From assembly GCF_000014745.1 (NCBI RefSeq), contig NC_008347.1, forward strand, positions 2,062,001-2,126,000: a DNA stretch of 64,000 bases. Reading direction: 5' to 3'. The DNA is from Maricaulis maris MCS10. Its GTDB lineage: Bacteria; Pseudomonadota; Alphaproteobacteria; Caulobacterales; Maricaulaceae. Below, piece after piece: positions 37,117-40,432 of the stretch. Positions within the stretch are counted from its first letter, which is position 1. Each line of letters opens with the position of its first letter. The notes beneath the pieces were generated by a model that made no database searches, was not told the DNA's origin, and saw only the letters and a program-made list of their open reading frames with translations. The translations under genes were made by a program, and so were the position numbers.

Positions 37117-37905
37117 ATGACCCTGACCGTTGCTTCCTGGAACGTCAATTCCGTCAAGGCCCGCCTGCCCAATGTGCTCGACTGGCTGAGCGAGGCCAAG
37201 CCGGATGTCGCCTGCCTGCAGGAGATCAAGACGGTGGATGAGGGCTTCCCGCGGATGGAGATCGAGGATCTGGGCTATAATATCGAGACCCATGGCCAGA
37301 AGTCCTACAATGGCGTCGCCATCCTCTCCAAACACCCGATCGAGGAGCTCCGCTGCGGCCTGCCGGGCGATGAGAGTGACGAGCAGGCCCGCTATATCGA
37401 GGCGGTAATCGCGGCGGAAGGCGGGCCGGTGCGCGTGGCGTCGATCTACCTGCCCAATGGCAATCCGGCACCGGGCCCGAAATACGACTACAAGCTGGCC
37501 TGGATGGAGCGCCTGCGTCGGCACGCCCAAAACCTGCTGACCTTCGAGGAACCGCTCATCCTCGCCGGCGACTATAATTGCATCCCGCGCGACAGTGATT
37601 GCTGGGACATCGCCGAATGGGAAAGCGACGCCCTCGCCTTGCCGCAAACCCGCGCCGCCTTCCGGGCGCTGAAATGGCTCGGCCTGACCGAGGCCTTCGA
37701 ACAGCTCGACGGGCGCGGTCACCAATACACATTCTATGACTATCAGGCCGGTCGCTGGAACAAGGGGCATGGTATCCGCATCGACCACTTGCTGTGCTCG
37801 CCGCAGGCTGCCGATCACCTTGAGGGCATCGAGATCCACACCAAGACGCGCGGCAAGGAAAAGGCCTCCGACCACATTCCGATCGTCGGCAGTTTTTCGC
37901 TTTAG
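37117..37905 (+). CDS. xthA: exodeoxyribonuclease III
   Basis: 262 residues. The enzyme cuts at abasic sites and trims 3' ends in base excision repair. Endonuclease/exonuclease/phosphatase motifs are complete: ASWNVNSVKARL, PDVACLQEIKT (catalytic glutamate), LAGDYNCIP, and RIDHLLCS with DHIPIVG at the end. Length and start are normal. It lies 82 bp from the divergent secreted protein gene. Confidence 0.95.
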   Translation: MTLTVASWNVNSVKARLPNVLDWLSEAKPDVACLQEIKTVDEGFPRMEIEDLGYNIETHGQKSYNGVAILSKHPIEELRCGLPGDESDEQARYIEAVIAAEGGPVRVASIYLPNGNPAPGPKYDYKLAWMERLRRHAQNLLTFEEPLILAGDYNCIPRDSDCWDIAEWESDALALPQTRAAFRALKWLGLTEAFEQLDGRGHQYTFYDYQAGRWNKGHGIRIDHLLCSPQAADHLEGIEIHTKTRGKEKASDHIPIVGSFSL

Positions 37906-38056: not shown

Positions 38057-38335
38057 ATGCGCATTTTACTGATTTCGACCTTCACCCTGGCCCTCTATGG
38101 CGGTGCAGCAGACGGCCAGCAGCCGGCGCCGCAACCGGCCGCCGAACGGTCTGAGCAATCCCAGTCTCGTACCGAAACGGGTCAACGACGCGGCCATGCC
38201 CGCGCCGCCCAGCAAATGGCCCGGGCCCGTCACAACTCCGCGCAATCGGACGAAGGCGCGCCGGCTCCGGCCGGTTTGCCGGTATCGGAGACGATCGTAA
38301 ACCAGACCGCCCCTGACCCTGATCCGGATCGGTAG
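38057..38335 (+). CDS. small exported proline/glutamine-rich protein, first gene of a DUF2145 module
   Basis: 92 residues: signal peptide (MRILLISTFTLALYGGAADG) and a low-complexity mature part rich in Q, A, R and P. It ends LPVSETIVNQTAPDPDPDR. Its stop is one base from the ATG of the DUF2145-like gene, so the two are almost certainly cotranslated. The final motif resembles the end of the second small protein (VTDAVIIADDAPQVPFNPD). Function unknown; it has no homologue I can name. Confidence 0.6.
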   Translation: MRILLISTFTLALYGGAADGQQPAPQPAAERSEQSQSRTETGQRRGHARAAQQMARARHNSAQSDEGAPAPAGLPVSETIVNQTAPDPDPDR

Positions 38336-38336
38336 C

Positions 38337-39128
38337 ATGCGCTACCTGATCGCGTGTTGCCTGTTCATCGTCTCCGCCGCCACCCCGGCGTGGGCGGACA
38401 GCGATGCGAGACCGATCGATCACTTCACGCTGCGCGAAGCGGCCGACTTCTCCAAACAGGTCGAACGGGAACTGGCACAGCGCGGCGCCTATATCGCCCT
38501 TGTCTTCCGCTCCGGCCGCCCCCGTGATGCCCTGCCGGACGGCGTTCGCTATACCCATGGCGCCTTCTGGGTCTACGGGCCCGTCACCGAGGCTGACGGC
38601 TCGCAGGGTCACGGCTATGCCGTCTATAATCTCTATCACGGACAGGACGACCCGACGACGTCCTACCTGGCGCAGGACTGGCCGCTGGATTTCATGCGTG
38701 GCGATGTTGTCGGCGAAGTCGGTGTCATCATTCCCAGCGAAGAGATGCAGATCCGGCTGCTCGATGTGATCGCCTCCGACCAGTATGACGCCCTGCACCA
38801 ACCCGAGTATTCGCTGCTCTCGAACCCGGCCGACCTGCGCTTCCAGAACTGCACCGAATTCCTGCTGGACGTGGTCGCGGCTGGTGCCTGGCTGACCGAT
38901 GACCGGGCTCGCATCAAGATCAATCTTGACGCCTATTTCCCGCCCACCCGGGTCGAGCTGGGCTGGTGGGAGCGGCTGACGGCCGGCTGGTTCGACCCGC
39001 GCATTCGCCTCGACGACCAGGGCAATGGGCCAGTGAACATCGCCAGCTTCTCGTCGATCAGCGACTTCATGCTGACATTCGACCTGGCCGATGAGAGTTT
39101 TGAAATCCAGGCGGACCCCTCGGATTGA
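38337..39128 (+). CDS. exported DUF2145-like protein (copy 1)
   Basis: 263 residues with a signal peptide (MRYLIACCLFIVSAATPAWA). The conserved pattern of this family is visible: RYTHGAFWVYG (H74), a YAVYNLYH segment, LAQDWPLDF, ALHQPEYSLLSNP and FQNCTEFLLDVV (C172). I assign it to DUF2145 (COG4727) from this layout. The His ... Asn-Cys order resembles the permuted papain-like fold (LRAT, YiiX, NlpC/P60 relatives), where an early histidine and a late cysteine form the active site. That would predict a periplasmic hydrolase or acyltransferase; this is inference. A paralogue is at 39605-40432. Confidence 0.72.
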   Translation: MRYLIACCLFIVSAATPAWADSDARPIDHFTLREAADFSKQVERELAQRGAYIALVFRSGRPRDALPDGVRYTHGAFWVYGPVTEADGSQGHGYAVYNLYHGQDDPTTSYLAQDWPLDFMRGDVVGEVGVIIPSEEMQIRLLDVIASDQYDALHQPEYSLLSNPADLRFQNCTEFLLDVVAAGAWLTDDRARIKINLDAYFPPTRVELGWWERLTAGWFDPRIRLDDQGNGPVNIASFSSISDFMLTFDLADESFEIQADPSD

Positions 39129-39254
39129 ATGAGAAAACGGGCGCGCATCGGGCCAGGCTGGAAACGTGAATCTAATTTACGAACATTGTTCATTTACAAT
39201 TCACGGCTGATCTGGGAGAGTGATGTCGGGCTGGCACCCGAATGGAGACGCACC

Positions 39255-39608
39255 ATGCGCACCCTGATGATCGCATCTTCCCTGCTGCTTGCAGTGACCC
39301 CGATGAGTTTGGCTGACAGCGGCAATCCGACGGCCCGAGCATCCGGCGAAAGTGCCGGCGCATCTGTCGAGGCGACAGCGACACTGGCGTCGGCCGGCGT
39401 CACCGTGACCGGCGCCGCCGTGGTCGGCGTGACGGGATCGACCGCCGGCGTCCTGACCGGCAATCCGGAACTGGTCGAAAACAGTCTCGACTTCGCCGCA
39501 GAGATGGCCGCGGCGCCGTTTGGTAGCGGACCGCTTGAGGTTACCGATGCCGTCATCATTGCCGATGACGCCCCGCAGGTCCCCTTCAACCCGGACGAGA
39601 CGCCATGA
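39255..39608 (+). CDS. small exported protein, first gene of the second DUF2145 module
   Basis: 117 residues from ATG at 39255 (MRTLMIASSLLLAVTPMSLA), a clear signal peptide. A longer frame from 39129 has no support. The mature part is alanine/glycine/threonine-rich (GASVEATATLASAGVTVTGAAV) with no cysteine. The end EVTDAVIIADDAPQVPFNPD resembles the end of the 38057-38335 product. The ATG of the next gene overlaps its TGA (ATGA). It has the same position relative to a DUF2145-like gene as the first small gene, so the pair looks duplicated. Confidence 0.62.
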   Translation: MRTLMIASSLLLAVTPMSLADSGNPTARASGESAGASVEATATLASAGVTVTGAAVVGVTGSTAGVLTGNPELVENSLDFAAEMAAAPFGSGPLEVTDAVIIADDAPQVPFNPDETP

Positions 39609-40432
39609 GGCACACTCTCACTGCCCTCTCGGTCCTGGTCCTGACCGGCTTTATCGCCCTGCCCGGCGCCGAAGCCGGGTCGGGCGCGCTTCCGATCTCG
39701 CCCTTCGCCATCGAGGACTCGGCCGATTTCTCGAAACAGATTGAACGCGATCTGGCGGCGCGCGGCGCCCGTGTGGCCCTGGTCTTCCGCACCGGCCGAT
39801 ATCGCGAGGATCTGCCCGAAGGAGTGCGTTATACCCATGGCGCATTCTGGGTCTGGTCCGAGATCGAGCTGGCGGACGGAACCCGCACACACGGCTATGC
39901 CGTCCACAATCTCTACCACCATGCCGACGAGACACGGCTCTCCTATCTCGCCCAGGACTGGCCTCTCAATTTCACCCGGGGCGATGTGGTCGGCGAGGTC
40001 GGAGTGATCCTGCCCTCCCCGGAAATGCAAAGACGGTTGTGGATGATGCTGGCCAGCGAGACCGACGAGGCCTTGCACCAGCCGGACTATTCCCTGCTCT
40101 CCAACCCGCACGACCCACGCTACCAGAATTGCAATGAATACCTGCTCGATGTGGTCGCCGCAGCCGCTTGGGAGACCACGGATCGCGAGCAGATCAAGGC
40201 CAATCTCACCGCCTGGTTCGAACCGGCCCCGATCCGTACCGGCCTGTTCGAGCGATTGCTGGGCCCGTCCGTTGATGACCGTATCCGGCTGGAAGACCAG
40301 CGCGGCACGATCCGCACCACGACCTTTTCGGCTCTCGCCCGTTTCATGAGCGAGCATCAGCTGTCCAGCGAGGCCTATGAAATCCGCGCGGCCTTTCTGG
40401 ACACGCCACGCGACCCCCTTCCCGCCGGCTGA
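39605..40432 (+). CDS. exported DUF2145-like protein (copy 2)
   Basis: 275 residues with a signal peptide (residues 1-25, ending PGAEAGS). It is clearly paralogous to 38337-39128: RYTHGAFWVWS (H78), YAVHNLYHHADE, SYLAQDWPLNF, ALHQPDYSLLSNP, YQNCNEYLLDVV (C176) and a shared C-terminal DDRIRLEDQ...FSALARFMSEH. The putative His and Cys are kept in both copies, which argues for a real active site. It is translationally coupled to the small gene before it and converges on selD. Confidence 0.72.
   Translation: MRHTLTALSVLVLTGFIALPGAEAGSGALPISPFAIEDSADFSKQIERDLAARGARVALVFRTGRYREDLPEGVRYTHGAFWVWSEIELADGTRTHGYAVHNLYHHADETRLSYLAQDWPLNFTRGDVVGEVGVILPSPEMQRRLWMMLASETDEALHQPDYSLLSNPHDPRYQNCNEYLLDVVAAAAWETTDREQIKANLTAWFEPAPIRTGLFERLLGPSVDDRIRLEDQRGTIRTTTFSALARFMSEHQLSSEAYEIRAAFLDTPRDPLPAG

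Follow-up and report, generated by a model that had tools for sequence, protein, structure and literature searches.

A recurrent small exported partner of DUF2145 proteins suggests a two-part envelope module

Genes for small exported proteins recur directly upstream of DUF2145 genes, and this pairing suggests a two-part envelope system that has so far gone undescribed. In the window (the whole stretch of DNA that was analysed, 64,000 nucleotides long) two such pairs, each a small exported protein gene coupled to a DUF2145 gene, lie in tandem at positions 38057-40432, just as an earlier note on this DNA had described them; its finding is real and more general than was thought. The new parts are the recurrent, unannotated partner and the split of the family into cysteine and serine forms with separate partner classes; the papain-like assignment of DUF2145 is already in print (in the available part of PMC10318531). 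The features of the two pairs are as follows.

38057..38335, + strand: small1, 92 aa, exported; charged middle, hydrophobic core absent; stop codon TAG
38276..38299, + strand: small1 tail motif LPVSETIV, residues 74-81; where the tail profile matches best, though not significantly for small1 alone
38337..39128, + strand: DUF2145 protein 1 (W1), 263 aa; signal peptide by eye; PF09916 E 7.9e-54
38556..38558, + strand: W1 His74 codon; His invariant, 60/60 aligned
38850..38852, + strand: W1 Cys172 codon; putative nucleophile
39255..39608, + strand: small2, 117 aa, exported; widespread type A (Ala/Gly/Val-rich core, then tail)
39531..39575, + strand: small2 tail motif PLEVTDAVIIADDAP, residues 93-107
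39605..40432, + strand: DUF2145 protein 2 (W2), 275 aa; signal peptide by eye; PF09916 E 8.4e-58
39836..39838, + strand: W2 His78 codon; model residue 54, first of strand 54-64
40130..40132, + strand: W2 Cys176 codon; model residue 152, first of helix 152-165

In the first pair a single base (C at 38336) separates the TAG stop of small1 from the start of the DUF2145 gene, while small2 and W2 are coupled by an ATGA overlap, so that both couplings are as previously read. The strings picked out earlier are likewise present: RYTHGAFWV (H74/H78) and QNC (C172/C176) in both large proteins, and VSETIVNQTAP and VTDAVIIADDAP in the small ones. The open frame of small2 has an earlier ATG at 39129, and its signal peptide begins at the ATG at 39255. 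The pairing was kept after duplication. W1 and W2, the only DUF2145 genes found in a search of the genome, are 57% identical over the whole proteins, and small1 and small2 are 30% identical. The closest named relatives are Maricaulis. In six ortholog comparisons the small genes have dN/dS values of 0.17-0.43 (DUF2145 across these six: 0.12-0.33), so that, judged from sequence, the small ORFs behave as real genes. The gene directly upstream of the first pair (window 37117-37905) resembles exonuclease III by eye.

Both large proteins match PF09916 far above its curated cut-off of 25 bits (182.7 bits for W1 and 195.7 for W2, over profile positions 1-200 and 2-200 of 200), which turns the earlier description of them as DUF2145-like into membership of the family. 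The family, which we take to be COG4727, is present in 23 of 61 close genomes and in 39 of 398 genomes of the window's phylum, roughly a tenth (own genome included in both counts), and none was found in 14 control genomes. Three plasmid records matched (Caballeronia, Comamonas and Mitsuaria), and phage records, searched for signs of a mobile origin, gave no match. A mobile origin was rejected, and so was a defence system, with no PADLOC match below E 0.07. No function of DUF2145 is described in the literature searched, and the recurrent partner gene gives a handle on this family.

A model of W2 built by AlphaFold2 with 60 sequences (pLDDT 94.4, pTM 0.91) places H54 at the opening of strand 54-64 and C152 at the opening of helix 152-165. 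As modelled, this succession of His strand and Cys helix matches the permuted papain-like enzymes of the NlpC/P60 type; across the 60 aligned rows the Cys/Ser position follows the invariant His, so the family departs from the canonical NlpC/P60 order, in which Cys comes before His. The available part of PMC3142127 treats G6R, YiiX and LRAT together as permuted enzymes, for which it names the Cys/His pair, a third residue that is polar, and a Tyr, with Tyr115 and Cys128 in YiiX. In DUF2145, a Tyr lies 14 residues before the Cys position (model Y138 and C152) in 60/60 rows, and the candidate third residue is model N78 (W2 N102) in strand 70-81, which is Asn in 46/60 rows and K, L or E in the 14 rows of a Ser branch.

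Foldseek against the PDB gave no match at E 0.001 or better among the 458 listed, and a viral model library gave one among 803, the top match, a protein named OPG091 (E 1.4e-4, TM 0.44) whose superposition is poor (rmsd 9.1). We take OPG091, a poxvirus-type permuted papain-like protein, to be the G6R family. Ranks 2 and 3 in the viral library are nameless, and lower ranks include a YaeF/YiiX C92 protein (rank 4, E 0.013), Orf virus OPG091 (rank 5, E 0.017) and an entry described as similar to vaccinia G6R (rank 29, E 0.42). The same top viral match came from a second model, built on a relative's enzyme read through together with its partner (E 4.6e-4, rmsd 25.3, TM 0.31). By sequence, the search for solved-structure relatives of the enzyme yielded none that was convincing (best E 0.18), and the 60 DUF2145 members showed no link above chance to any other Pfam family; DUF4796_C, matched by one of the 60 at E 0.2, is at chance level and was discarded. 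On the evidence of the model, a permuted papain fold of DUF2145 is probable. The papain-fold idea of the earlier note thus survives in the His-then-Cys order of a confident model, and the fold search it had suggested as a check gave nothing from the PDB at that threshold and a single viral match of poor rmsd.

The 60-row alignment leaves R58, G60, H74, L99, Y158, Q170 and D227 (W1 numbering) invariant. Written as His, third residue, Tyr and nucleophile, the putative site reads H-N-Y-C in 42/60 rows; the Ser branch (14/60) has H-K-Y-S in 8 rows, H-L-Y-S in 5 and H-E-Y-S in 1, and 4/60 rows deviate inside the Cys branch (H-N-Y-S in 3, H-N-Y-A in 1). In the named set, window included, the nucleophile is Cys in 85 of 88 rows. 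A quick tree of 121 rows, with its long branches flagged, has a deep split of 14 Ser rows from 107 others and needs 4 nucleophile changes, of either direction, three of which fall in the Cys branch (within the window's genus and in one relative). Against the simplest version of the cysteine-enzyme description stand a whole Ser branch and the four deviating rows with Ser or Ala. The available part of PMC10318531 presents DUF2145 as a papain-like family with a conserved serine replacing the cysteine, to which account the Cys branch adds. The small-gene/DUF2145 pair is still kept in Ser-type loci, and the Cys/Ser split makes the family a natural example of how a probable papain fold can exchange its nucleophile. 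At one contig end (L081 86-995) lies a DUF2145 gene with Ala at the nucleophile position and, by eye, a lipobox.

The partner gene recurs well beyond the window. One or other of two small-protein families is present in 35 of the 398 genomes, and DUF2145 accompanies it in 32 of these, each time with a copy directly downstream; the earlier prediction that a small exported gene would be found beside DUF2145 elsewhere is thereby borne out in 32 of the 39 DUF2145 genomes. The type A profile, made from 29 small proteins with their signal peptides removed, matches 25 of the 398 genomes, and in 22 of the 25 there is a DUF2145 gene with the small gene just upstream on the same strand (23 pairs, the domain match starting 154-371 nt after the small match ends). 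This association (Fisher p ~1e-22, kinship ignored) speaks for specificity rather than discovery, because some of the genomes supplied rows of the profile. The Ser-branch profile, built from eight small proteins, matches 10 of the 398 genomes, all 10 with DUF2145 just downstream on the same strand (coordinates by eye). The small1 type, found beside W1, escapes both profiles.

Some matches and genes fall outside this pattern. Of 28 type A matches, 24 stand before a DUF2145 gene (one as a tandem second copy) and 4 have none within ~1.5 kb (G111, G147:C373, G300 and G427); those in G300 and G427 (E ~2e-4) are weak and look like chance. At the other two loci, L162 (G111:C190) and L166 (G147:C373), a type A gene stands with no DUF2145 gene for ~1.5 kb on either side, L162 lying near frames that resemble, by eye, isopropylmalate synthase and transposase. 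Conversely, 7 of the 39 DUF2145 genomes have no partner by profile (G148, G152, G163, G304, G353, G426 and G440), the DUF2145 matches being only partial in G304 and G426, and a further copy lacks a profile partner in five genomes (G147, G280, G301, G345 and G436).

In the named set (86 DUF2145 genes, 84 readable), a loose filter, which also fires on 163 of 458 control genes, picked a hydrophobically starting small ORF upstream of 81 of the 84, and the stop of the picked ORF falls within -30 to +14 nt of the DUF2145 start in 74 of the 81; these 81 include one pick outside the family (first copy in L138) and one frame-broken gene (L077). A stricter rule retained 63 of 84 DUF2145 genes vs 35 of 458 controls, an uneven comparison, with ATG required on the control side only. 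Profile matches at the training loci (105/119 ORFs) are circular and were left unused; among the 12 training-locus misses, L121, L045 and L048 are owed to the stretch searched, the small gene being present there. Several loci show arrangements of their own: a type A gene frame-broken in its assembly beside an open DUF2145 gene (L006/L077), two tandem type A genes before one DUF2145 gene (L176/L178, G088:C10), a DUF2145 - small - DUF2145 array at L138 4868-6976 on a contig titled Nitrosomonadales bacterium, and an unrelated 76-aa lipoprotein-like gene upstream in L053, L054 and L055 (Ser branch, one genome family). Crude frame clustering, which recognised DUF2145 itself in 66 of 78 loci, found no third conserved neighbour across lineages; an exonuclease III-like gene (by eye) recurs in 13 of the 78 named loci and adjoins DUF2145 in L042/L043.

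Neither small1 and small2 nor six small proteins of relatives reached the cut-off of any Pfam or NCBIfam family, a sequence search for solved-structure relatives of type A found none, and hhalign detected no relation between type A and the Ser-branch small class (probability 0.4%). A match of one Ser-branch small protein to the STM0539 family (E 0.095, 12.4 bits vs a cut-off of 50) was set aside. In type A proteins an export signal is accompanied by Ser/His/Ala repeats, a stretch of hydrophobic residues around AVP, a helix and, as tail, PLxVSDE...PxP. The small1 type is without the hydrophobic segment and keeps the tail; among the loci read, it is confined to the window's genus beside W1-clade genes. 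By-eye matching placed all 11 small1-type proteins with W1-clade genes (11/12 rows, the 12th at a contig end) and a type A partner with W2-clade genes in 10/10 rows, one of these partners being frame-broken in its assembly.

The PLxVSDE-type C-terminal tail is thus common to two diverged small proteins of the window's genus. Scored with a tail profile made from those type A rows (58 of 85) that matched a motif pattern, the 11 distinct small1-type proteins together exceed all 500 shuffled sets (mean 4.5 vs a maximum of 0.8; 1.65 vs 0.58 with the HMMER bias correction on). The tail of the window's small1 alone is not significant, its score being reached by 63 of 500 shuffles (499 of 500 with bias correction). 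The similarity of tails noted earlier therefore holds for the 11 proteins jointly and cannot be claimed for small1 by itself. Since the duplication the small protein has changed elsewhere but retained its tail, a pattern of sequence conservation that points to the tail as a contact with the enzyme.

Putative lipid anchors are seen on either member of the pair. A lipobox is seen by eye in 8 of 85 type A partners (9 by regex), all eight in Rhodobacterales contigs, and in this group the partner tail is reduced to a PPxLD-like end. Five Cys-branch genes have, by eye, no upstream small gene: L041 (= L131), L042, L043, L068 and the first copy in L138, L042 and L043 being sisters in the tree. One of the five enzymes has its own lipobox, 2 carry a hydrophobic stretch at the N terminus that shows no cleavage motif and 2 an ordinary signal peptide, which may hint at a relation between absence of the partner and an anchor on the enzyme itself. 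An anchor and a partner can occur together, five partnered enzymes (L101, L104, L106, L107 and L122) having their own lipobox. A Fisher value of 0.001 for this relation was given no weight, coming as it does from hand-made counts that omit the first copy in L138 and ignore kinship.

We propose, with about even confidence, that the small protein serves an envelope enzyme of papain fold as a dedicated docking partner, either placing or regulating it. Each pair would form a two-part envelope module, in which the large protein would be an exported enzyme of permuted papain fold with Cys176, His78 and, as likely third residue, Asn102 (W2 numbering). The C-terminal helix and PLxVSDE/PxP tail of the partner would dock on the enzyme, and its variable N-terminal half would place it in the envelope, by a hydrophobic Ala/Gly/Val segment in most cases, a lipid anchor in some and a charged stretch in small1. 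For docking speak the block means of the L020 read-through model, pLDDT 73 for the helix and 80 for ANEPLTISDE, against 59 for VLSAVPPPAL and <50 for most of the rest of the small protein, values obtained with the enzyme always included, such that a lone helix could score equally. The partner might then act as adaptor, anchor or activator. The substrate, the weakest step of the proposal, is possibly lipid-linked, by analogy with permuted NlpC/P60 enzymes. The two paralogous pairs, with diverged partners that share a tail, make a direct swap test of docking possible.

Second in our ranking comes the possibility that the small protein is a dedicated substrate, which DUF2145 would cleave, acylate or modify in some other way, likeliest near the tail. 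We consider this unlikely, though some observations favour it: the small gene adjoins the enzyme gene in those 32 of 39 genomes, the conserved tail could serve as a recognition motif and is less well kept in one Ser row (L112), and some partners are lipoprotein-like, lipoproteins or lipid-linked peptides being the substrates suggested for YiiX in the available part of PMC3142127. However, the pair and the tail persist with a Ser nucleophile (L015 and L073), and the Ser-branch small protein has no detectable relation to type A. It is improbable that DUF2145 is a non-enzyme which uses a papain scaffold chiefly for binding, with the partner as its cargo. The Ser of a whole branch, the Ser or Ala of four Cys-branch rows and the K, L or E that replaces Asn in the Ser branch would fit such a role, and PMC10318531, in its available part, finds the site rather positively charged and calls catalysis speculative; the putative site nevertheless keeps its His, Tyr and Gln in 60/60 rows, and Cys goes with Asn in 42/60.

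The least probable reading casts the small protein as an inhibitor, or as a regulator of propeptide kind, with a tail that would occupy the cleft of the active site. For it speak the lead position of the small gene in a tightly coupled pair and an extended tail of fair confidence in the L020 read-through model; against it, the enzyme is not known to have an activity that the tail could inhibit.

With somewhat less than an even chance, DUF2145 and its small exported protein would make up a widespread, so far undescribed two-component system of the envelope. An adaptor associated with membrane or lipid would deliver a papain-fold enzyme through a conserved C-terminal tail, and the enzyme would come in two deep forms, Cys and Ser, each with its own adaptor class.

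Among known systems, DUF2145 resembles the permuted papain-like enzymes (YiiX/C92 and LRAT) in its modelled His strand before the Cys helix, the Tyr shortly before the Cys, a polar candidate for the third residue and export. It differs from them in that its likely third residue is Asn and a partner gene adjoins, and the families are not joined by sequence: C92 and LRAT (PF04970) are absent among the Pfam families matched by the 60 DUF2145 members at E up to 5, and hhalign against 20 rows of Peptidase_C92 (PF05708) gave a non-significant probability of 0.3% (20 of 21 C92 rows and 12 of 13 DUF3750 rows were used in these comparisons, with L194, L202 and L200 left out). DUF3750 (PF12570), named beside DUF2145 as a Ser-type papain-like family in the available part of PMC10318531, shares a His strand and a later NSN motif, and its best hhalign stretch pairs the nucleophile motifs of both families, without reaching significance (E 0.017, probability 2.7%). 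For the module as a whole, the available part of PMC6050968 describes LbcA-CtpA of Pseudomonas aeruginosa, in which a lipoprotein binding partner is needed for the activity of an envelope peptidase. The protein families differ, and the complex and activity of LbcA-CtpA were shown by experiment; the proposed DUF2145 module may work in the manner of this lipoprotein and its peptidase.
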